Under the pieces are notes generated by a model. The model worked only from the letters and a program-made list of their open reading frames with translations, made no database searches and was not told the origin of the DNA. From a virus, in IMG/VR virus record IMGVR_UViG_3300025849_000204, positions 1-25,021 of that record: DNA of 25,021 nucleotides; one strand, given 5' to 3'. This document shows positions 403-25,021 of this stretch, piece after piece (the first letter of the stretch is position 1; every line of letters begins with the position of its first letter). A program made the translations under genes and the position numbers.

Positions 403-1308
403 ATGGCTATTTCACGCGCCCAGCTCCTTAAAGAGCTATTGCCCGGTCTTAACGCTCTCTTTGGGCTTGAGTACGGCAAGTACGAAAACGAACATGCAGA
501 AATCTATGAGACTGAAAACTCAGAACGTAGTTTTGAGGAGGAAGTGAAATTATCAGGATTTGGAGCAGCACCAGTTAAAGCTGAAGGCTCTTCCATTTCT
601 TATGATAATGCTCAAGAATCGTTTACAGCTCGTTACAATCACGAGACTGTTGGCATGGGTTTCTCCATCACTGAAGAAGCGATGGAAGATAACTTGTACG
701 ATTCTCTGTCTGCTCGTTATACTAAAGCCTTGGCTCGCGCCATGGCATACACCAAGCAGGTTAAAGCAGCTTCGTTGTTGAACACAGGCTTCACCACATT
801 CAACTCTGGTGATGGCACTACATTGTTCTCAACAACACACGGCACTGTGGCTGGCACTAATAACGCCAACCGTCCAGCAGTTGCTGCTGACTTGAACGAA
901 ACCTCGCTTGAGCAAGCAGTAATTGACATCGCAGCGTACACTGATGAACGCGGCCTGTTGATTGCAGCTCGCCCACGCAAGCTCATCGTTCCACCTGCGT
1001 TGATGTTTGTTGCGACTCGTTTGCTCCAGACTGAACTGCGTGTAGGTACAGCGGATAACGACATTAATGCTATCAACACTAATGGTTCGATCCCTGAAGG
1101 TTACCGCGTCAACCACTATCTGACTGACGCAGACGCCTTCTTCCTGACTACAGATGTTCCAAACGGCATGAAGCACTTTGTGCGTACAGCCATGCAGACA
1201 TCTATGGACGGTGACTTCGATACAGGTAACGTGCGCTACAAAGCGCGTGAGCGTTATTCTTTCGGTGTATCCGATCCGCTTGGGATGTACGGTTCGCCCG
1301 GTGCATAA
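403..1308 (+). CDS. Major capsid protein (Mu gpT/HK97-like)
   Basis: This 301-residue protein probably forms the icosahedral shell. The N-terminal third carries an acidic stretch (about residues 25-50, NSERSFEEEVKLSGFG) and a segment GMGFSITEEAMEDNLYD, followed by helix-rich sequence SARYTKALARAMAYTKQVKAA. This pattern is familiar from the Mu-like major head subunit/HK97-fold capsid proteins of marine podoviruses. A later segment, PRKLIVPPALMFVATRLL, matches the usual core beta-strand/helix region of that group, and the C-terminus has RYKARERYSFGVSDP. The length is normal for the family. A strong SD precedes it and a strong terminator follows at 1332. The family call rests on pattern recognition; a head protein is also supported by its place before the neck genes. 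Confidence 0.85.
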   Translation: MAISRAQLLKELLPGLNALFGLEYGKYENEHAEIYETENSERSFEEEVKLSGFGAAPVKAEGSSISYDNAQESFTARYNHETVGMGFSITEEAMEDNLYDSLSARYTKALARAMAYTKQVKAASLLNTGFTTFNSGDGTTLFSTTHGTVAGTNNANRPAVAADLNETSLEQAVIDIAAYTDERGLLIAARPRKLIVPPALMFVATRLLQTELRVGTADNDINAINTNGSIPEGYRVNHYLTDADAFFLTTDVPNGMKHFVRTAMQTSMDGDFDTGNVRYKARERYSFGVSDPLGMYGSPGA

Positions 1309-1331: not shown

Positions 1332-1367
1332 AGGGGCGGTCTTCGGATCGCCTCTTTCTTTTTGTTT
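1332..1367 (+). terminator. Intrinsic terminator after capsid gene
   Basis: A 10 bp stem (AGGGGCGGTC with GATCGCCTCT, two G-U pairs) is closed by a C(UUCG)G tetraloop at 1341-1346 and followed by a T-rich tract (1354-1367). This is the classic rho-independent architecture. It may be partial, letting some transcripts read on into the small virion genes and so keeping capsid mRNA in excess. Confidence 0.85.
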
Positions 1368-1395
1368 GAACCTAGTGTATTCTGTTTTTACTAGG
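1366..1395 (+). promoter_or_regulatory. Weak promoter candidate with inverted repeat
   Basis: TTGAAC (1366-1371) and TACTAG (1389-1394) are 17 bases apart, a poor but correctly spaced sigma70-like pair. An inverted repeat, CCTAGT (1371-1376) and ACTAGG (1390-1395), straddles the spacer and the -10. A start about 7 bases downstream of the -10 would fall near 1401, just before the pseudoknot leader. The boxes match poorly, so this is tentative. Confidence 0.3.
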
Positions 1396-1405
1396 GCAAA
1401 CATCA

Positions 1406-1473
1406 GCTTTGTAGACAGGTTACCGCCCTCCTGACGTTGCATAGACTACAAAGCGAATCCTTATGCAAAGGGT
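1406..1473 (+). promoter_or_regulatory. H-type pseudoknot leader RNA
   Basis: Two perfect, interleaved helices can form. P1 pairs GCTTTGTAG (1406-1414) with CTACAAAGC (1446-1454). P2 pairs TTGCATA (1437-1443), inside the P1 loop, with TATGCAA (1462-1468), downstream of P1. CCCT (1426-1429) can also pair with AGGG (1469-1472), the Shine-Dalgarno of the gene at 1480. The shape (long first loop, SD at or next to the second helix) recalls SAM-II, SAM-V and SAM/SAH riboswitches, but I do not recognise a known consensus. It is either a translation operator or an uncatalogued cis-acting RNA. Confidence 0.55.
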
Positions 1474-1479
1474 ACTAAA

Positions 1480-1704
1480 ATGGCTTCGACTACATTTTCA
1501 GGTCCAGTGACCTCAACCGCTGGTTTCATTGGCGACATCAAAGTTCCAACATACACAGTTGCAACCGCTCCATCTGCTTCAGATGCTGGTGCTGGTACGC
1601 TTGTATACGTTTCTAACGGTGCAGCAGGCGCAGCAATCTTGGCCTTCTCTGATGGCACAGACTGGAAGCGTTCTGATACAGGTGCCACCATCGCCGCAGC
1701 ATAA
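1480..1704 (+). CDS. Small beta-rich virion protein
   Basis: This is a 74-residue protein with no basic cluster, Cys or membrane helix. It begins MASTTFSGPVTSTAGF and then has a segment ending YVSNGAAGAAILAFSDGTDW. That second motif resembles a short beta element common at the ends of phage fibre or head-appendage proteins. It is the first gene after the capsid terminator, and its ribosome binding site (AAAGGG, 1467-1472) lies at the 3' end of the predicted pseudoknot, so its translation may be controlled by that RNA. The function is unknown; a capsid or fibre accessory protein is the best guess. Confidence 0.7.
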   Translation: MASTTFSGPVTSTAGFIGDIKVPTYTVATAPSASDAGAGTLVYVSNGAAGAAILAFSDGTDWKRSDTGATIAAA

Positions 1705-2798: not shown

Positions 2799-3073
2799 TA
2801 TCTCGGTCTCAAATGGGAAGTCAGTTAGTAGGCAACCGCGTCTCTACTGGAGACGATGCGAGGGATTTAGACATCATTCGCTTTGGCAAAGGTGGTAAGA
2901 CAGAGAGCAAAGTCAATGAGGCTGGCAACTACACCCAGCCCGGAAAACGTAAGGGTTTGTTTAACAAGATAAAAGCTGGTGGCAAAGGTGGCAAGCCCGG
3001 TCAGTGGTCCGCTAGAAAGGCCCAGATGCTGGCTAAGGCGTATAAGGATTCTGGTGGGGGGTATACATCGTGA
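2792..3073 (+). CDS. Lys/Gly-rich conserved phage protein
   Basis: This 93-residue protein is the second of four basic proteins in a row. It has LDIIRFGKGGKTESKV (shared IRFG element with the previous protein), NEAGNYTQPGKRKGLFNKIKAGGKGGKPGQW, then SARKAQMLAKAYKDSGGGY at the C-terminus. The last segment resembles a recurring marine-phage motif for small basic proteins. The start at 2792 gives a 7-base overlap; the Met codon at 2813 is an alternative start that would trim seven residues. The function is unknown. Confidence 0.7.
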   Translation: MVISRSQMGSQLVGNRVSTGDDARDLDIIRFGKGGKTESKVNEAGNYTQPGKRKGLFNKIKAGGKGGKPGQWSARKAQMLAKAYKDSGGGYTS

Positions 3074-3490: not shown

Positions 3491-4174
3491 ATGGCAGTAG
3501 TCACACCAGACCTACCAGAACTATTTGAGGAAGCATATGAACGTGCTGGCCTTGAGATGCGTTCTGGCTATGATTTAAAAACGGCTCGTAGGAGCCTTAA
3601 CATATTAACATTGGAGTGGCAGAATCGTGGTCTCAATCTCTTCACTATTGAAGCGGGTACGCTCGCTATTACAGCGGGTACGTCAACGTATACCCTTCCT
3701 TCGGACACCATCGACCTCATCGAACACCAAGTCCGTACAGGCACAGGTACAAATCAAACCGACACCGCCCTCGAAAGGGTCAGTGTCGCGACCTACGCCC
3801 AGCAAACCAACAAAAACACGCAAGGCAGGCCAACCCAAATCTACGTCCAAAGGCTCCCCACGGAAGTCAAAATAACTCTATGGCCCGTGCCGGACGCCAC
3901 TACGCCGTATACCTTGTCTTACTATAGGCTAAAGGGGATTGATGGTTTGTCGAGTGGCATCGGTGGGGATGTTACGACTGTACCACCTCGTTTTGTGCCA
4001 GCCTTAGTATCGGGCATGGCTTACTACATTGCGATGAAGAAGCCAGACGTTGCCGCTCGTGTCCCGCTGTTGAAGCAAGAGTATGAGTTCCAGTTCCAGC
4101 TCGCTGCTGGTGAGGATGAGGAAACAGCGTCAATCAAGTTTGTACCCTTTGATACGTTTATGATGGGTGGATAA
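3491..4174 (+). CDS. Neck/connector structural protein
   Basis: This 227-residue protein begins with a helix (LPELFEEAYERAGLEMRSGYDLKTARRSLNIL), then alternates strands and turns (AITAGTSTYTLPSDTIDL, ITLWPVPDATTPYTLSYYRL), and ends with a helical segment around PPRFVPALVSGMAYYIAMKKPDV. This helix-strand-helix order with the ITLWPVPD element is typical of head-to-tail adaptor or stopper proteins of marine podoviruses, and the gene at 4931 has a comparable architecture. It probably sits between portal and tail. It overlaps the next gene by one base (TAATG). Confidence 0.65.
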   Translation: MAVVTPDLPELFEEAYERAGLEMRSGYDLKTARRSLNILTLEWQNRGLNLFTIEAGTLAITAGTSTYTLPSDTIDLIEHQVRTGTGTNQTDTALERVSVATYAQQTNKNTQGRPTQIYVQRLPTEVKITLWPVPDATTPYTLSYYRLKGIDGLSSGIGGDVTTVPPRFVPALVSGMAYYIAMKKPDVAARVPLLKQEYEFQFQLAAGEDEETASIKFVPFDTFMMGG

Positions 4175-8236: not shown

Positions 8237-8611
8237 ATGGCTGCACCAAATATCGTAGATGTAAGCACGATCATAGGCAAATCCGCCACTGTCGCGCTTT
8301 CTACAACTTCACAGACAACGCTGGTCAGCAACGCTGCATCATCGGGCAAGGTGTTTAAGATTAACATGATCCAAGTGGCTAACGTAGATGGCGTAAATGC
8401 TTGCGATATTACGGTTGACGTACACAGCGCCGCTTCTGGCGGTGGCACGGCTTACTCAATTGTTAGCACTGTATCAGTTGCAGGGGACTCATCGCTAGTT
8501 GCTCTGGATAAGAATACTGCGATTTACCTTGAGGAAGATCGCTCAATCACAGCAACTGCTGGCACTGCGAATGATCTGGAAGTGATCGTAAGCTACGAAG
8601 AGATCAGCTAA
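8237..8611 (+). CDS. Conserved beta-sandwich appendage protein
   Basis: This 124-residue protein has no Lys-rich regions. It has strands GKVFKINMIQVANVDG, CDITVDVHSAAS and AIYLEEDRSITA, ending VIVSYEE. The order resembles the two 94-residue paralogues at 1929-2504, suggesting one fold used several times. A strong SD precedes it, and its stop overlaps the next gene's start (TAATG), coupling it to the first propeller protein. It is likely a fibre-associated structural subunit; the function is inferred from context. Confidence 0.7.
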   Translation: MAAPNIVDVSTIIGKSATVALSTTSQTTLVSNAASSGKVFKINMIQVANVDGVNACDITVDVHSAASGGGTAYSIVSTVSVAGDSSLVALDKNTAIYLEEDRSITATAGTANDLEVIVSYEEIS

Positions 8612-10065
8612 TGCGTACCATAGGCAACACACCTGTAGATGGTGAAGTACGGGCTGTTGCCAGTGGTGCATTGGCTAACGGCGACACGGTTGTGGTTAAT
8701 GCTGATGGCACTGTAAGTGCTGTTGGGGGAGGCTCTGGAACTGAGGGAGTTGGTACGCCCGTTGTCTTTGAAACAGCAAGTGTATCCTACACTTCAAGTA
8801 CCTATGACTCTAACAGTGACAGAACCGTTGTAATTTTTATGAATTCTGGGTCTAAAGCGGCAGTAGGAACTATTGATCCGTCCGACAACTCTATTAGTTT
8901 TGGAACGCCCGTGCAGGCGGCTGAACTGGGGGCCGGGCAATGGAACTCCATAACTTTTGATGCAAGTACCAACAAGGTGGCTTGGGTTAATAACTCATAT
9001 TGCGGTGTGGGTACGGTTGATCCATCTGATAACTCTATAAGTTTTGGCACACCGATATTTCGCCCTTTTGGTTTTGATGTTCAGTGGACTTCCGCCGTTT
9101 ATGACTCCAACTCAAATAGGGTTGTATTTCTTGCCAGAAAAGAACTTTCTCCGCAAGAGGGCTGGGCTTTGGTCGGCACGGTCTCCGGGACTAGCTTGTC
9201 ATTTGGATCGCCAGTAAAATTTCAAAGCGGAACAGTAACCAATATTGCAGCTACTTTTGACTCCAACTCTAATAGAGTTGTAATAGCCTTTAGGCACGAC
9301 AGTTCAAGCAATTACGGCAAAGCTATTGTCGGAAGTGTTGATCCATCCGACAACTCTATTAGTTTTGGGACTGCTGTGACTTTTAACAGTGGGAACACAT
9401 ACCGGATGGGTTGCGGCTTTGACAGCCTTAACAATAAAGCTGTTATATCCTACAGAAATTCCGCAGCGGGTGGCAATAGTTATGGAACCGCTATTGTGGG
9501 TACGGTTGACCCATCCGATAATTCTATCAGTTTTGGCACCTCTGTTGTTTTTCATTCGGGTTCGACTGGCTTTGGGACTAGCGTAGTTTTTGACTCCGCT
9601 GCTGGAAAAATCGTTATAGCTTATGACGATGACACTAATGTTTCTGGCAGAGTAATATCTGGAACGGTTTCGGGGACATCTATTACGTTTGATACTGCGG
9701 TTGCGTTTGAAAGCGGTAATACACAATATGTTTTTGCCTCTTACGATAGCACGTCAGAAAGAGTGGCTATAGTTTATGAAGATGACGCTAATCTTGACTA
9801 CGGCACAAGTAATGTATTTTCAGTGGGCTACACCTCCACCAACCTTACCGCCGAAAACTTCATAGGCTTTGCAGATGGCGCTGCTGCTGACGGTACATCT
9901 GCTGGTGTCCAGACGGGTTGCTCTATTAATGACGCACAGTCTGGCTTAACTGCGGGGCAGGATTACTATGTCCAACTTAACGGCACGTTGAGTGAAACCC
10001 CCGCCGATCCATCTGTACTCGCTGGCACTGCCGTGTCGGCTACTGAAATTATCGTGAAAGGATAG
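8611..10065 (+). CDS. Propeller fibre protein 1 (one 7-blade propeller)
   Basis: This is a 484-residue member of a three-gene family. The N-terminal module (residues 1-40) has ASGALANGDTVVVNADGTVSAV. Residues about 47-405 hold seven repeats of about 51 residues, each with a variable strand, DSNSxxVVIAxxxD, a VGT element and a SISFGTxV strand; seven such units suggest a seven-bladed beta-propeller. The C-terminus has YTSTNLTAENFIG and SGLTAGQDYYVQLNGTL. The repeats use the form GTVDPSDNSISFGT more often than its paralogues. Likely a tail-fibre or receptor-binding head; the ligand is unknown. Confidence 0.75.
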   Translation: MRTIGNTPVDGEVRAVASGALANGDTVVVNADGTVSAVGGGSGTEGVGTPVVFETASVSYTSSTYDSNSDRTVVIFMNSGSKAAVGTIDPSDNSISFGTPVQAAELGAGQWNSITFDASTNKVAWVNNSYCGVGTVDPSDNSISFGTPIFRPFGFDVQWTSAVYDSNSNRVVFLARKELSPQEGWALVGTVSGTSLSFGSPVKFQSGTVTNIAATFDSNSNRVVIAFRHDSSSNYGKAIVGSVDPSDNSISFGTAVTFNSGNTYRMGCGFDSLNNKAVISYRNSAAGGNSYGTAIVGTVDPSDNSISFGTSVVFHSGSTGFGTSVVFDSAAGKIVIAYDDDTNVSGRVISGTVSGTSITFDTAVAFESGNTQYVFASYDSTSERVAIVYEDDANLDYGTSNVFSVGYTSTNLTAENFIGFADGAAADGTSAGVQTGCSINDAQSGLTAGQDYYVQLNGTLSETPADPSVLAGTAVSATEIIVKG

Positions 10066-10068
10066 AAG

Positions 10069-10332
10069 ATGAAGACCATCGTTGAAACATCCAGCGGCTT
10101 GAGTAAGTACCTTCTTGCTGATGACGTGACCATTACTGCCACGGCAGAGAACATCACAGTGGGTGATCCTGCTCAGTTCATCATTGGTGACTTGAACAGC
10201 ACCACAGTGACCGTCACTGACAACGTGACCAACGCCCCTGCGGATTGGACTGGCAACAAGTATTTCTTTGACGGTACGACTTGGACGTTAAACGCTGATT
10301 GGGTAGACCCAACACTAGACGACGAGGAATAA
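10069..10332 (+). CDS. Small conserved protein between propeller genes
   Basis: This 87-residue acidic protein begins MKTIVETSSGLSKYLLADDV and has a segment AQFIIGDLNSTTVTVTDNVT, NKYFFDGTTW, and an acidic tail WVDPTLDDEE. This arrangement (VETS...LADD...FIIGDLNS...DGTTW) is familiar from small conserved proteins next to tail fibres in marine phages. It lies between two paralogous propeller genes with no overlap. It may be a fibre chaperone or connector; the function is not known. Confidence 0.65.
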   Translation: MKTIVETSSGLSKYLLADDVTITATAENITVGDPAQFIIGDLNSTTVTVTDNVTNAPADWTGNKYFFDGTTWTLNADWVDPTLDDEE

Positions 10333-10336
10333 TAAT

Positions 10337-11794
10337 ATGCGCACCATTGGTACACCCAGCACACAAGCACGGAAGCTGAACGCCATTGCCAGTGGTGCGT
10401 TGCCCAATGGTGATCCTGTTGTCGTTAATAGCGATGGGACTGTTAGTGTTGTTGCGGAGACAAGTGCGTCAGAGGCAGTCGGCACTGAAGTTGTTTTCAA
10501 CGACTCATACACAAGGTACACTGATGTAGTTTACGACACAAATGCGCAAAAAGTTGTTATTGGGTACATGGACCCGGGGAATAGCAACAAAGGGAACGCC
10601 CTTGTGGGAACAGTTGATCCATCTGATAACTCTATTACCTACGGATCAGAGGTAAATTTTGAAGCTGGGGCAACCGAGTGGGTCAAGGGGACATATGACG
10701 CAAATGCAGGTCGAGTAGTATTTGCATATCGGGACGACAGCAATAGTGGCAAGGGAACCGCTGTGGTGGGGGTTGTTTCGGGGACTTCAGTTTCTTTCGG
10801 CACTCCTGCAACTTTTACTGATAGCCAAGTTCAGTATGTAAATATCGCATATGATAGCAATGCTCAGAAAGTAGCTATAGTATATACGGACCAGACAAAC
10901 AGCAATGCTAGTTATGCAGTTGTAGGCACTACAAACCCTGCCAATAATAGCATTAGCTTTGGGACAGCCGCAGAGTTTGAGTCGACTGCAAGCTACTATC
11001 ATACCATCACCTATGACGAAAACGCACAGAAATCATTAATTACATTTGCTGATAGTGTAGCAGGGGACGCCCGTGTCGCAAGCATTAGTGGAACCAGCAT
11101 AAGTTTTGGAGCCAATGTAAGTTTCAATAATTCGCTTGGAGTTATAGCAGCAGCGTATGACCCAATCGCACAAAAAATTGCTGTATTTTATAACGATGGT
11201 GGTAACGGAAATAAATTAACTGGGATTGTCGCTACAATAAGCGGCACTTCAGTAACCTTCGGGGCCGAAACGGCTATCGGAGCTTCTATCGGGGATATTT
11301 ATGCTGAAGCAACATATGACTCAATAGCAAAAAAGATAGTTCTGGCCTATAGAGATAACGGCGATAGTAATAAAGGGAAAGTTGTTACGGCAACAATTTC
11401 GGGTACGACTTTGAGCTTCGGCACTCCGATATTATTCAATAATGGATCGACTAATAATATTGGTGTGGCCTTCGATAGCAATGCAGGAAAAACTGTTATC
11501 TGCTACGAGGATGAAGGTAATACCGAAAAAGGGACTGCTATTGTTTATCAACCAGCCTACACATCCACCAACCTCACCGCTGAGAACTACATCGGCCTAT
11601 CCAGCAACGGCTATCCCGACACGGCTGGGGCCACCATTGATGTGCAAGGTGCGATAAACGACAGGCAATCAGGTTTGACTGCGGGTCAGGCATACTACGT
11701 CCAGACGGATGGCACACTAACCACAACCGCTGGAGACCCAAGTGTCTTCGCTGGCACAGCCATATCGGCAACCAAGATGATCGTGAAAGGCTAG
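10337..11794 (+). CDS. Propeller fibre protein 2 (one 7-blade propeller)
   Basis: This 485-residue paralogue of the proteins at 8611 and 11798 has the same N-terminal (ASGALPNGDPVVVNSDGTV) and C-terminal (SGLTAGQAYYVQTDGTL) modules. Residues about 48-405 hold seven repeats. Its blades use DSNAQKVAIVY, DPIAQKIAVFY and variant turns, so it has diverged furthest in surface loops while keeping the framework. Divergent blades with conserved ends suggest an exchangeable receptor-binding head on a common attachment. The start is preceded by GAGGA. No enzymatic signature such as a sialidase Asp box is seen. Confidence 0.75.
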   Translation: MRTIGTPSTQARKLNAIASGALPNGDPVVVNSDGTVSVVAETSASEAVGTEVVFNDSYTRYTDVVYDTNAQKVVIGYMDPGNSNKGNALVGTVDPSDNSITYGSEVNFEAGATEWVKGTYDANAGRVVFAYRDDSNSGKGTAVVGVVSGTSVSFGTPATFTDSQVQYVNIAYDSNAQKVAIVYTDQTNSNASYAVVGTTNPANNSISFGTAAEFESTASYYHTITYDENAQKSLITFADSVAGDARVASISGTSISFGANVSFNNSLGVIAAAYDPIAQKIAVFYNDGGNGNKLTGIVATISGTSVTFGAETAIGASIGDIYAEATYDSIAKKIVLAYRDNGDSNKGKVVTATISGTTLSFGTPILFNNGSTNNIGVAFDSNAGKTVICYEDEGNTEKGTAIVYQPAYTSTNLTAENYIGLSSNGYPDTAGATIDVQGAINDRQSGLTAGQAYYVQTDGTLTTTAGDPSVFAGTAISATKMIVKG

Positions 11795-11797
11795 ACC

Positions 11798-14347
11798 ATG
11801 AGAACTATCCCAGAGTTACAAGAGGGTACGCATAGGGCCAAGGCTTCTGGTACTCTGCCGAATGGTAAGCCTGTTATCGTTAATGCTGACGGGACTGTTA
11901 GTGTTGTGGAAGCAACTACAATACCTCAGGCCGTTGGTTCTTCTGCTGTATTTGAAAGTGCTACTACTGGCGTAGGCGGAATAGGTTCTACCTTTGATAG
12001 CAGTAGTAATAAAATAGTTATAGCTTATAGAGATGGTGGCAATAGCAATTACAGCACTGCCGTTGTTGGGACGGTATCAGGTACGAGTATCAGCTTTGGT
12101 ACTCCCACTGTATTTGAAAGCTCTGCTGGACAAAACTTCTCTCCTGTATTTGATAGTAATGCTAATAAAGTTGTTATAGCTTACACGGGCGCAAATGATT
12201 ATGGGAGGTCCGTTGTCGGGACAGTCAGCGGAACAAGCATCACTTTTGGGTCAAGTGTAATTTTTTATTCAGGTGTTGCCACTTGGGATAGTGCCGTTTT
12301 TGATAGTAGCAATAATAAAATTGTTATTGCGTATAAAGACAATAGCAATTCAAGTATAGGAAGAGCCGTTGTTGGCACGGTGTCTGGCTCAAGCATTAGC
12401 TACGGCTCCGCTGTAACATGGACATCTAGCGCCGTCCAATATCTTTCGATTGCATTTGACAGTAGCAATAGCAAAGTTGTTATATCTTCTCAGGTTGGAA
12501 CCAGCGGCCAATCTGTTGTTGGGACTGTTTCCGGTACATCCATATCATTTGGATCAACAACTACTTTTGAAACAGGTAGTTATCCTGAATCGACTTCAAC
12601 CGCATTCGACAGCATTAACAATAAAATTGTTGTAGCTTGGACAATTTCTTCTACAGGAAAAGCTATTGTTGGCACCGTGTCTGGAACCAGTATCAGCTTC
12701 GGAACTGCTGTGTCCTATGCGTCTGCTACCACTACCTCAATTTCTAATACTTTTGATAGCAACACTGGAACAGTTGTTGTTTCCTACAGAGATGAAGGCA
12801 ACTCCAATAAAGGCACTTTCGTAACAGGCACGGTTAGCGGAACAGATATAAGTTTCACGAGTCCAACGGTATTTGAAGGCAATTCAACTACTTCCATTAC
12901 ATCTTCCTTTGATAGTAACTCTAATAAAGTTGTTATATCGTATCAAGACGCTGGAAATTCAAACTACGGTACAGCTAGAGTGGTGCAGCCGCCGGGTTCT
13001 AGTGCCAACCTCACCGCTGAGAACTACATCGGTATGTCTGGTGGGGTGGTGACTGGTGCGCCTCAATCTGTGGGTTCTGCTGTTGTTTTTGAAAGCGCAG
13101 AGGCAGACCAAATGTCCGCCGTGTACGATGCTGACAACCAAAAGGTTGTTATAGCATATAGGGACCGTGGCAATAGTAACTACGGCACCGCTATTGTTGG
13201 CACTGTAAGCGGCACCTCTATCAGCTTTGGAACCGCCGTTGTTTTTGAGAGTGCCAGCAGCAACAACTTCGCTGCCACCTACGACTCTAACGCACAAAAA
13301 GTTGTTGTAGCTTACACTGACGCGGGAAACTCGTCCTACGGAACTGCCATTGTGGGTACAGTAAGTGGTACTTCTATCAGTTTTGGGTCTGCCACTGTGT
13401 TTAAAACTGCTAACGCATCTGGCAAGGCGATGACTTATGACAGTAGCGCACAGAAAGTTGTTGTAGCATACAGAGACCTTGGCAACAGCGATCAAGGCTC
13501 GTGCAACGTGGGTACGGTAAGTGGCACGTCCATCAGCTTTGGTTCTGACGTTATTTTTGAGGCGGCTAGTACGAACGAAATATCTGCCACCTTTGATAGC
13601 AGCGGCAACAAAGTTGTTATCGCTTACAGCGATGAGGGCAACAGTAATTACGGCACTGCGATAGTAGGGACAGTCAGTGGTACGTCTATCAGCTTTGGAA
13701 CTGCCGTTGTGTTTGAGACAGCAACAGCAACAGAAATGTCTGCGGTTTTTGACAGCAACAGCGATAAAGTTGTTGTAGCATATAAAGATGCCGGTAATTC
13801 ATTTTTTGGTACTGCCATTGTAGGAACGGTTAGCGGAACTTCTATCAGCTTTGGAACTGCCGCTGTGTTTCAAGAGTCAAACACTCAAAATATATCAGCA
13901 GTTTTTGACTCTAATACAAACAAAGTAATTATGGCGTATAGAGACGGTGGAGAGTCTGACTTCGGGAAAGTTATAGAAGGAACGGTTAGCGGAACTTCTA
14001 TCAGCTTCGGAAGCGCACTGACTTTTGAAAGTTCAACGAGTGAATGGATTTCGGCTGCTTACGACACTGCTTCACAAAAAACTGTAATAGCATATCAGGA
14101 TGATGCTAACTCTCAGTACGGAAACGCCATTGTCTTTCAAGCAGACACAATCACCAGAGGCTCTGTAGCAGACGGTAGTAGCGCCACGGTAGACATCATC
14201 GGCTCACTCAGCACAAACCAGTCTGGCCTCACCGCAGGGCAAAGCTACTACGTCCAGACAGACGGGACGATAGGAGAGACCGCTGACGATCCAAGCGTCT
14301 TTGCGGGGACAGCAATATCTGCTACAAGTTTAGTAGTAAAAACATAA
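11798..14347 (+). CDS. Double propeller fibre protein (two 7-blade propellers)
   Basis: This 849-residue member of the same family has the N-terminal module ASGTLPNGKPVIVNADGTV, then seven repeats (about 45-396), a linker with SSANLTAENYIGMSGG, seven further repeats (about 424-780) and a C-terminal SGLTAGQSYYVQTDGTI module. The linker repeats the start of the C-terminal module (LTAEN.IG), as in a fusion of two single-propeller genes that lost the inner end module. The second propeller has especially uniform blades. Likely a host-recognition fibre; no enzyme motif is visible. Confidence 0.78.
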   Translation: MRTIPELQEGTHRAKASGTLPNGKPVIVNADGTVSVVEATTIPQAVGSSAVFESATTGVGGIGSTFDSSSNKIVIAYRDGGNSNYSTAVVGTVSGTSISFGTPTVFESSAGQNFSPVFDSNANKVVIAYTGANDYGRSVVGTVSGTSITFGSSVIFYSGVATWDSAVFDSSNNKIVIAYKDNSNSSIGRAVVGTVSGSSISYGSAVTWTSSAVQYLSIAFDSSNSKVVISSQVGTSGQSVVGTVSGTSISFGSTTTFETGSYPESTSTAFDSINNKIVVAWTISSTGKAIVGTVSGTSISFGTAVSYASATTTSISNTFDSNTGTVVVSYRDEGNSNKGTFVTGTVSGTDISFTSPTVFEGNSTTSITSSFDSNSNKVVISYQDAGNSNYGTARVVQPPGSSANLTAENYIGMSGGVVTGAPQSVGSAVVFESAEADQMSAVYDADNQKVVIAYRDRGNSNYGTAIVGTVSGTSISFGTAVVFESASSNNFAATYDSNAQKVVVAYTDAGNSSYGTAIVGTVSGTSISFGSATVFKTANASGKAMTYDSSAQKVVVAYRDLGNSDQGSCNVGTVSGTSISFGSDVIFEAASTNEISATFDSSGNKVVIAYSDEGNSNYGTAIVGTVSGTSISFGTAVVFETATATEMSAVFDSNSDKVVVAYKDAGNSFFGTAIVGTVSGTSISFGTAAVFQESNTQNISAVFDSNTNKVIMAYRDGGESDFGKVIEGTVSGTSISFGSALTFESSTSEWISAAYDTASQKTVIAYQDDANSQYGNAIVFQADTITRGSVADGSSATVDIIGSLSTNQSGLTAGQSYYVQTDGTIGETADDPSVFAGTAISATSLVVKT

Positions 14348-23480: not shown

Positions 23481-25021
23481 ACATAATCGACATCCAAGAC
23501 AACTTAAAGAATCTGCCAGAACAAGCTCTGATGCAGGAGATGCAGCAACCTACTGGTAGCGCACCACAGTTCCTTGTCTTGGGTGAGTTGAAGCGCCGTA
23601 AGCAGATGCGTGATGATTACAATCGTCAGAAGAACGCAGATATGAAGACCGTTGCTGAAGAGGTAGTAACCGCAGCGGGAGCGCCACAAGAGGGCATCAT
23701 GCAGATGTCTCGTTCCTTGAACCCCAATACCAACATGGCACAGGACACAGGTCTGGCCCAAGCTGCACCTGTAACCCCAACACAAGCACCACAACCACAG
23801 GCACCTCAGATGATGTCTGATGGTGGGATTATGCGACTTCAAACAGGTGGGACTATCAGTGCCATTGCTAATCTTAAAGTCAATCATCCTGAAATTTACG
23901 AAGAGTATAAAGGCAACCCGGAATCTCTGGCACTGGCTGCAGAATACTTCCTCAACGTGCCAGAAACTCCTGCGCAGACGGTTATGGAGTCATCAGAAAA
24001 ACCTCGTGAATACGACCTGCTAAAGCGTATGTTTTCTGACCCCACTCGTGGGGACATTATAGATCAGCAGAAACGTGATGCAGCAGAGTTTGGTGCCGAC
24101 TACGCACTAGATCAAAGTGATCAGTCTCTATTTAACCAGCAACAAGCCGAGCTTGCTGGCAACGAAATGCTGTTCGCTGAAGGCGCACCTGTAGAATATC
24201 TGACGGGTAACGTGTCCGCAGGTATTGGTGGTAGCGCAGTGCCGTTTGCCGCCGCAGATACCCCTGCGAGTGCCGCGCTAACACAGCCTGTAAGTCCTGA
24301 GATTGCAGATTTTATACCACCTCAGTCACCCACTGCAGACATTGGGGTTAGAACGCTTTCGGGTGGCGCATCACCTTTGCAAGCCAACATGACCGATGTA
24401 CTACCTGACGTTAGTATAGCTAACGCTAGGGCTGATGCAGATAGAGACGACTTGCTGGGATACCTGCGTGGTGAGTATAAGGGTTCTGACTTGCCTGCCA
24501 TAATTGACGCTATTGACAGAAACAATATGGACGAAGGAGGTTTTCGAACCACCTCAGATAGAGTTATAAGAGATGACTTGGGCGGCGGACATAGCCCCGC
24601 GTATTTCCCAAACGATAGGGTAATTGCTCCGTTAAATCGTCGCGCTCAAGCATACATGCAGAGCGACATGTACACGCCACCAGAGCAGATTTATGATCTC
24701 AGCCCTAGAGGAAGTTTGAAGTACGAAGAAGCAGGGGACGAAGAGTTTGCCGCTGTTTCTGACAGACTTGCACGGGAAGACACCGCAGACGCAATAGCTA
24801 AAGAAGATGCTTTCTTCGCGGCTGAAGACGCTAGGTTGGACGCACAAAGAGCGGCTGATCGTGCAATTGGTCGCAGAATTAGTATGGATCAACCCTTAGA
24901 CCCTGACGCCCAATTCGCGGATTCGGCTGCACGGGCGTTTCAGCAGGGTCGAGATAAGTCTACGAGCTTCTTGAGTATGTTCGATGACCTTGTAGACGCG
25001 GGATCAGGTTACTTTGACGCC
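23477..25021 (+). CDS. Large internal virion protein, 3' partial
   Basis: The ATG overlaps the previous stop (ATGA), and the frame stays open to the last base, giving at least 515 residues. The N-terminus is helical (MNIIDIQDNLKNLPEQALMQEM, then LGELKRRKQMRDDYNRQKNAD). It is followed by a Pro/Gln linker and SDGGIMRLQTGG near 115-126, a motif shared by many marine-phage internal proteins. Acidic, low-complexity sequence follows, including a helical stretch of alternating Ala, Glu and Asp near 430-460. No lytic transglycosylase motif is seen in this part; one may lie beyond the window. Probably a long ejection protein. Confidence 0.65.
   Translation, partial: MNIIDIQDNLKNLPEQALMQEMQQPTGSAPQFLVLGELKRRKQMRDDYNRQKNADMKTVAEEVVTAAGAPQEGIMQMSRSLNPNTNMAQDTGLAQAAPVTPTQAPQPQAPQMMSDGGIMRLQTGGTISAIANLKVNHPEIYEEYKGNPESLALAAEYFLNVPETPAQTVMESSEKPREYDLLKRMFSDPTRGDIIDQQKRDAAEFGADYALDQSDQSLFNQQQAELAGNEMLFAEGAPVEYLTGNVSAGIGGSAVPFAAADTPASAALTQPVSPEIADFIPPQSPTADIGVRTLSGGASPLQANMTDVLPDVSIANARADADRDDLLGYLRGEYKGSDLPAIIDAIDRNNMDEGGFRTTSDRVIRDDLGGGHSPAYFPNDRVIAPLNRRAQAYMQSDMYTPPEQIYDLSPRGSLKYEEAGDEEFAAVSDRLAREDTADAIAKEDAFFAAEDARLDAQRAADRAIGRRISMDQPLDPDAQFADSAARAFQQGRDKSTSFLSMFDDLVDAGSGYFDA

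Follow-up and report, generated by a model that had tools for sequence, protein, structure and literature searches.

A Double-Pseudoknot Leader RNA before a Small Virion-Type Gene of Uncultured Phages, Probably a Relative of Mu-gpT-DE

Why should a phage lay two perfect, interleaved helices across the ribosome-binding site of a gene for a protein of 74 residues? The question is raised by a short piece of the window, as we call the whole 25,021-nucleotide stretch of viral DNA analyzed here; in this piece, a gene for a major capsid protein is followed by a folded leader and then by the small gene. A preliminary description of the locus saw in it an unannotated H-type pseudoknot leader at 1406-1480, likened it to the SAM-II, SAM-V and SAM/SAH riboswitches and judged that two such helices were unlikely to have arisen by chance. 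In this paper, we have tried to separate three issues that such a claim runs together: is the fold real, to what is it related and what might it do for the gene that it precedes?

The fold and its covariation

A fold proposed from a single sequence is best judged by its relatives. We searched IMG/VR with the capsid protein and the 74-aa protein, which gave 160 loci, and divergent relatives of the small protein brought in 125 more; across the loci gathered in this way, the region 5' of the small gene keeps its architecture, and its letters vary widely. The two helices first noticed, P1 and P2, are perfect and interleaved exactly where they had been placed in the window, and they covary among homologous leaders, which also show three further covarying helices, P0, hairpin H and P3 (Table 1). 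Thus, the pseudoknot held up, but its description as a simple H-type did not, the covariation supporting instead a five-helix double pseudoknot with two loop contacts. Likewise, the site was right, and the limits were not: the leader spans about 1393-1472 and starts further 5' than had been thought. As far as sequence can tell, a double-pseudoknot leader of this kind heads a small virion-type gene in many uncultured, mostly marine, phages.

In this architecture, P2 is a kissing contact, which joins the loop of P1 to the loop of a weak hairpin, P3, at the Shine-Dalgarno sequence (SD), and P0 ties the loop of H to the 5' end of the RNA. Read from 5' to 3', the elements are the 5' strand of P0, the 5' strand of P1, an A, hairpin H (with the 3' strand of P0 in its loop), AC and one nucleotide and the 5' strand of P2, which we call the C strand; then come AGA, the 3' strand of P1, the 5' strand of P3, the 3' strand of P2, the 3' strand of P3 with the SD and finally, the AUG. 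The window has seven base pairs in P2 (TTGCATA 1437-1443 with TATGCAA 1462-1468), six of which are conserved. The helices vary freely among the homologous leaders, while the nucleotides of the junction are nearly invariant: a G-C pair on P1, the A, the C-G and G-C pairs of H, the AC and the AGA.

Table 1. Features of the leader and its surroundings (window coordinates; counts of significant pairs are from the tree-aware null, swap values are own versus swapped partners)
Feature	Position	Strand	Letters or product	Evidence
Major capsid protein gene	403-1308	+	Mu gpT-like / Phage_capsid_4, 301 aa	PF25209 E 1e-14; PF10124 E 1.4e-9; PHROG 371 major head protein
Intrinsic-terminator-like hairpin and T tract after capsid gene	1332-1355	+		sequence scan
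-10-like hexamer, candidate promoter, 9 nt 5' of P0	1378-1383	+	TATTCT	no good -35 in window
P0 5' strand	1393-1397	+	AGGGC; partner in H loop, 1425-1429	swap test 4.60 vs 3.56; 2 pairs significant
P1 5' strand	1406-1414	+	GCTTTGTAG	7/9 pairs significant
Unpaired conserved A, junction core	1415	+	A	alignment
Hairpin H 5' strand	1416-1419	+	CAGG	homologues CAG/CTG, CTG/CAG, CCG/CGG; middle pair significant
P0 3' strand in H loop	1425-1429	+	GCCCT	covariation, swap test
Hairpin H 3' strand	1430-1433	+	CCTG	covariation
Unpaired conserved AC, junction core	1434-1435	+	AC; variable nucleotide 1436 next	invariant columns
P2 5' strand (C strand)	1437-1442	+	TTGCAT	6/6 pairs significant; swap test 5.89 vs 4.77
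Conserved AGA, junction core	1443-1445	+	AGA	AGA in 60/63 non-redundant leaders
P1 3' strand	1446-1454	+	CTACAAAGC	exact pairing, covariation
P3 5' strand, anti-SD strand of SD hairpin	1459-1461	+	CCT	2/3 pairs significant
P2 3' strand, loop of SD hairpin	1463-1468	+	ATGCAA	covariation
P3 3' strand	1469-1471	+	AGG, within SD AGGG 1469-1472	covariation
Controlled gene, small virion-type	1480-1704	+	FSGP-family protein, 74 aa	FSGP N-terminus common to 259 homologous genes

We judge the helices real because the homologues covary. A covariance-model alignment of 67 leaders has P1 and H paired at 96.6% as against 68.9% with shuffled partners; two-sided changes number 221, and the covariation score is 0.708, as against 0.174 on shuffling and at most 0.12 on sliding. 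The covariation check that had been suggested for P1 and P2 was run on 63 leaders with a scripted tree-aware null similar to that of R-scape (a FastTree phylogeny, Fitch substitutions placed randomly on its branches and a G-test with average-product correction). At E < 0.05, 18 column pairs were significant, and all 18 lie inside the five helices (P0 2, P1 7, H 1, P2 6 and P3 2) and none outside. Swapping partners between leaders cut the pairing beyond all 5000 permutations for P0, P1, P2 and P3 in leaders that had been picked by the N-terminus of the protein and lined up on sequence anchors. The anchors fixed the P1 strands independently of P1 pairing and required the pairing of H, whereas the strands of P0, P2 and P3 were positioned with pairing in mind, so that their counts are somewhat flattered; for P0, the result holds with Watson-Crick pairs only.

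Might all of this be complementarity by chance, without function? One result would suit that idea, namely that the nested fold of the single sequence is of ordinary energy (z = 0.47). The homologues have already refuted it, since the significant pairs fall where they do and every helix has two-sided changes, and we give it next to no weight. The arithmetic for the two helices alone points the same way as the earlier judgment about chance, short of deciding it: in random sequence of the same dinucleotide frequencies, 0.05 H-type pseudoknots with helices of 9 and 7 bp within 70 nt are expected per 25-kb strand. A 9/7 pairing that turns up on the minus strand (23554-23616 in reverse-complement coordinates, which 25022 minus x converts to the plus strand) is 1406-1468 over again, the same palindromic-type pairing and not an independent case.

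The leader is also unannotated, as had been claimed. The Rfam search that had been proposed returned no match in the window at gathering and in 1300-1520, no match to Mu-gpT-DE or to a riboswitch at E up to 10. Two relatives gave weak Rfam matches (L078 to RF02926 at 15 bits and L291 to snoR100), which lie below threshold, and we rejected them as family identities and take them as chance. The leader DNA found no match among deposited phages; the six matches in bacterial genomes are all on MAG or uncultured-bin contigs and are probably phage.

The ribosome-binding site and the transcript

What marks a translational cis-regulatory leader, structurally, is that covarying structure includes or abuts the SD of the following gene, and that is what the window has. 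It had been supposed that the SD pairs with 1426-1429. That helix (CCCT 1426-1429 with AGGG 1469-1472) does not covary, its own pairing of 2.08 being no better than the 2.09 of swapped partners (p = 0.61), and it is unsupported because its 5' strand belongs to P0, where 1425-1429 pairs with 1393-1397; the partner of the SD is the 5' strand of P3. Among homologues, P3 appears as CCT/AGG, CTC/GAG, CTT/AAG, GTG/CAC, ATC/GAT and GGT/ACC. The SD overlaps the P2 or P3 strands in 55 of 63 leaders; in the other eight, it begins 0-2 nt 3' of P3, and closure would there come by crowding, not by pairing. Leaders of a Pelagibacter-phage subtype have a P2 strand, CTAGG, that itself extends into the SD (phage HTVC027P), and P3 is not evident in the leader of HTVC023P.

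Taken alone, the P3 hairpin is weak, with a median of -0.6 kcal/mol (-3.5 in the window), and P2 is worth about -6. This suggests that it is P2 that makes closure of the SD effective, although the value for the window is not negligible, and its SD could be partly closed without P2.

Where might the RNA begin? In 43 of 63 homologous leaders, P0 is preceded at a distance of 10-60 nt by a terminator comparable with the one after the capsid gene of the window, and -10-like hexamers are most frequent at 8-10 nt before P0 (27/22/17% versus roughly 0-14% at other distances). A scan for a full sigma-70 promoter found none in the window, and the hexamer TATTCT is a weak candidate. From these positions, we infer that the RNA begins at or near P0. 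No terminator-like site lies between leader and gene in the window.

The genes further along have some features of their own. Shortly after the leader-controlled gene come two adjacent, paralogue-like 94-aa proteins (1929-2213 and 2220-2504), and at 8611-14347, there are three tandem related proteins (484, 485 and 849 aa) with related N-termini and repeats like VVIAYRDGGNSNYGTAVVGTVSGTSISFG, an 87-aa gene standing between the first two.

A relative of Mu-gpT-DE that stays with one gene family

The likeness to SAM-II, SAM-V and SAM/SAH found no support; the nearest relative of the leader is a phage element, Mu-gpT-DE (RF03012), for which we know of no function. The window leader does not reach its gathering threshold of 49 bits. 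The leaders of FSGP genes in sister phages do match RF03012 (L002, L013, L022 and L027; for example, L002 at 3985-4037 and, in another locus, L080 at 3996-4040), and one of the matching sister phages has a capsid protein 98% identical to that of the window. The consensus of RF03012 closes with CAGGAGAUuaACAUG, letters that hold the SD of the following gene and its start codon, and a Mu-gpT-DE leader runs as far as the AUG of an FSGP gene; Rfam types the element as "Gene; sRNA."

The two RNAs have in common a junction of the form P1-A-H-AC-C-nGA-P1', that is, one helix nested within another, with A, AC and nGA as conserved letters (AGA in the window), an H of the CAG..CTG type and a C strand of 6-7 nt. 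They also share their site, after a gpT-like capsid gene and before an FSGP gene, and both enclose the initiation region. The differences lie in how the enclosing is done. Mu-gpT-DE is 53 nt long, has neither P0 nor the SD hairpin P3 and carries its SD (CAGGAG) as the 3' strand of a short P1, its C strand facing the AUG; in the window, the 3' strand of P1 ends 14 nt upstream of the SD, so P1 is not the SD strand. Because it fails the model score and uses a different SD strand, the window leader is a relative of Mu-gpT-DE and not a member.

In nearly all of 26 distinct Mu-gpT-DE leaders, the C strand reads GCCA where the start reads AUGGC and CCCA where it reads AUGGG. It thus tracks codon 2, so that this single-stranded stretch can form a helix with the start codon, one that the Rfam structure line lacks. 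Mu-gpT-DE has been named among RNAs for which covariation points to pairs beyond those in the databases (PMC7657543). In two leaders (L078 and L081), P0, P1 and H form the same scaffold as in the window, and a UGCCA stands opposite AUGGCA; both look intermediate. On these comparisons, the window leader and Mu-gpT-DE are probably variants of one regulatory RNA.

To what gene does this RNA belong? The 74-aa protein had no family or match in Pfam, PHROGs or the PDB. Its FSGP N-terminus occurs with differing C-terminal parts, and its own C-terminal beta module resembles segments of phage tail fibers, as does its AlphaFold model (pLDDT 77) among viral models, with nothing convincing in the PDB. We regard the product as a putative virion-type protein. 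A relative in the metagenome-assembled phage DSL-LC04 is annotated as a cement protein, the sole relative so annotated (PMC10611076), and is preceded by a clear type I leader RNA.

The leader and the gene move together. Over 1-1363, the window is 88.7% identical to L002; the likeness then breaks off, with no detectable match over 1364-1916, and resumes at 1917. The piece exchanged is the promoter region, the leader and the gene, and L002 carries in its place Mu-gpT-DE and another FSGP gene. Where the capsid and FSGP genes are not neighbors, it is the FSGP gene that the RNA accompanies (HTVC027P and L028). Leader and gene are, that is, exchanged together and kept together away from the capsid gene, which argues for action of the RNA in cis. 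A strict type I parse fits 176 of the 260 FSGP genes that have full leaders, and the type II pattern fits 27; most of the other 57 look, on inspection, like type I variants. FSGP genes that start MLTSFSGP stand without such a leader (for example, L256, L257-L259, L261 and L263); there, the upstream sequence looks coding, which suggests overlap with an upstream gene. In the other direction, almost all genuine RNAs stand before an FSGP gene, and three precede genes with divergent-looking or different N-termini (L055, L067 and L068).

Two leaders are worth recording separately. One FSGP leader (L140, about 2905-3000) is of neither type and seems to have interleaved helices, with CTCG/CGAG as its SD hairpin. 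In Synechococcus phage MinM2 (L163, about 1558-1632), a pseudoknot of GACCCGGGG/CCCCGGGTC with CCGTCT/AGACGG at the SD sits after the capsid gene and before an FPAPV gene; it looks different and is possibly a third leader type.

What the leader might do

We think it likely that 1393-1472 is a leader that controls in cis the initiation of translation at the FSGP gene. In the mechanism that we propose, the leader would sit close to the 5' end of the transcript and fold as a three-helix junction (P1, H and P2) with its two loop contacts, and the P2 contact would stabilize the weak P3, so that sequestration of the SD becomes effective. The ribosome site would be closed when the junction is folded and accessible when it is open. 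It is somewhat the better guess that the folded state is the off state, a kissing contact that stabilizes the SD hairpin being a natural way to make one.

What would set the switch? A virion protein of the phage is the likeliest trigger, if short of a probable one: the FSGP protein or the gpT-like capsid protein, the two common denominators across leader-bearing phages, could bind the conserved junction, and synthesis would stop once enough had accumulated. More tentatively still, we propose a previously undescribed class of double-kissing translational switch, in which free capsid or FSGP protein binds the shared junction and the RNA reads out the state of assembly.

A metabolite- or ion-sensing translational riboswitch, whose junction would bind a small ligand and so lock the kissing contact over the SD, would account for a compact, nearly invariant junction amid freely varying helices and for a weak P3 that depends on P2. 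But the same core is present in Pelagibacter phages HTVC023P and HTVC027P and, in its Mu-gpT-DE form, in Roseobacter phage CRP-902, which argues for a partner that is phage-encoded or universal, and because the hosts of these phages are unrelated, a phage protein is likelier than a metabolite. The genes that the element precedes at the loci seen are, moreover, of virion type and in no case metabolic (a biased sample, gathered with virion genes), and no Rfam riboswitch matched in the window; we hold a riboswitch to be distinctly unlikely. The structure could instead be constitutive and unregulated, a cap that protects the 5' end of the mRNA against decay and that fixes the initiation rate, low or high (it could even raise initiation), and with it the stoichiometry with the capsid protein. 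The place of P0 at or near the presumed transcript start fits this idea, as does the position after a terminator. Simple hairpins would suffice for such a task, however, and a double pseudoknot with a conserved unpaired core, kept in two architectures, suggests a binding site, so that we find a constitutive role rather unlikely.

The Rfam type of RF03012 invites yet another reading, a small RNA that comes from the 3' region of the capsid gene and acts in trans, and the terminator-promoter arrangement upstream would suit it. We consider it very unlikely: the SD of the following gene, and in Mu-gpT-DE its AUG as well, lies within the element; the element travels with the FSGP gene and not with the capsid gene; and no terminator-like site separates it from the gene in the window.

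If control in cis by a virion protein is right, the switch class would unite Mu-gpT-DE with a larger group of unlisted leaders from phages whose capsids are of the gpT type. The orphan RNA Mu-gpT-DE gains a candidate function, since both RNA types enclose the ribosome-binding site of one virion gene family, and there is a testable route by which tailed phages might keep a virion protein in balance with the capsid. HTVC023P and HTVC027P carry relatives, so the proposal can be tested in sequenced Pelagibacter phages, and structural work is offered a strongly covarying double-pseudoknot fold.

How does such a switch compare with those already known? In cobalamin riboswitches, an upstream loop kisses the loop of a hairpin at the ribosome-binding site and closes translation, and the loop-loop contact at such a hairpin is what the window has in common with them; the window differs in having no cobalamin aptamer, no Rfam match and a virion gene of a phage downstream. 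The SAM-II, SAM-V and SAM-SAH riboswitches form a pseudoknot with its 3' strand at the SD, and so does the window, which, unlike them, has two loop contacts, an SD hairpin and another gene context; their covariance models picked up nothing in 1300-1520 at E up to 10. The T4 gene 32 leader pseudoknot serves autogenous translational repression by the gene's own product. Its fold is unrelated to that of the window and is not a kissing hairpin at the ribosome-binding site, but it, too, is a pseudoknot in the leader of a phage mRNA, and repression by a protein is the likeness that we propose.
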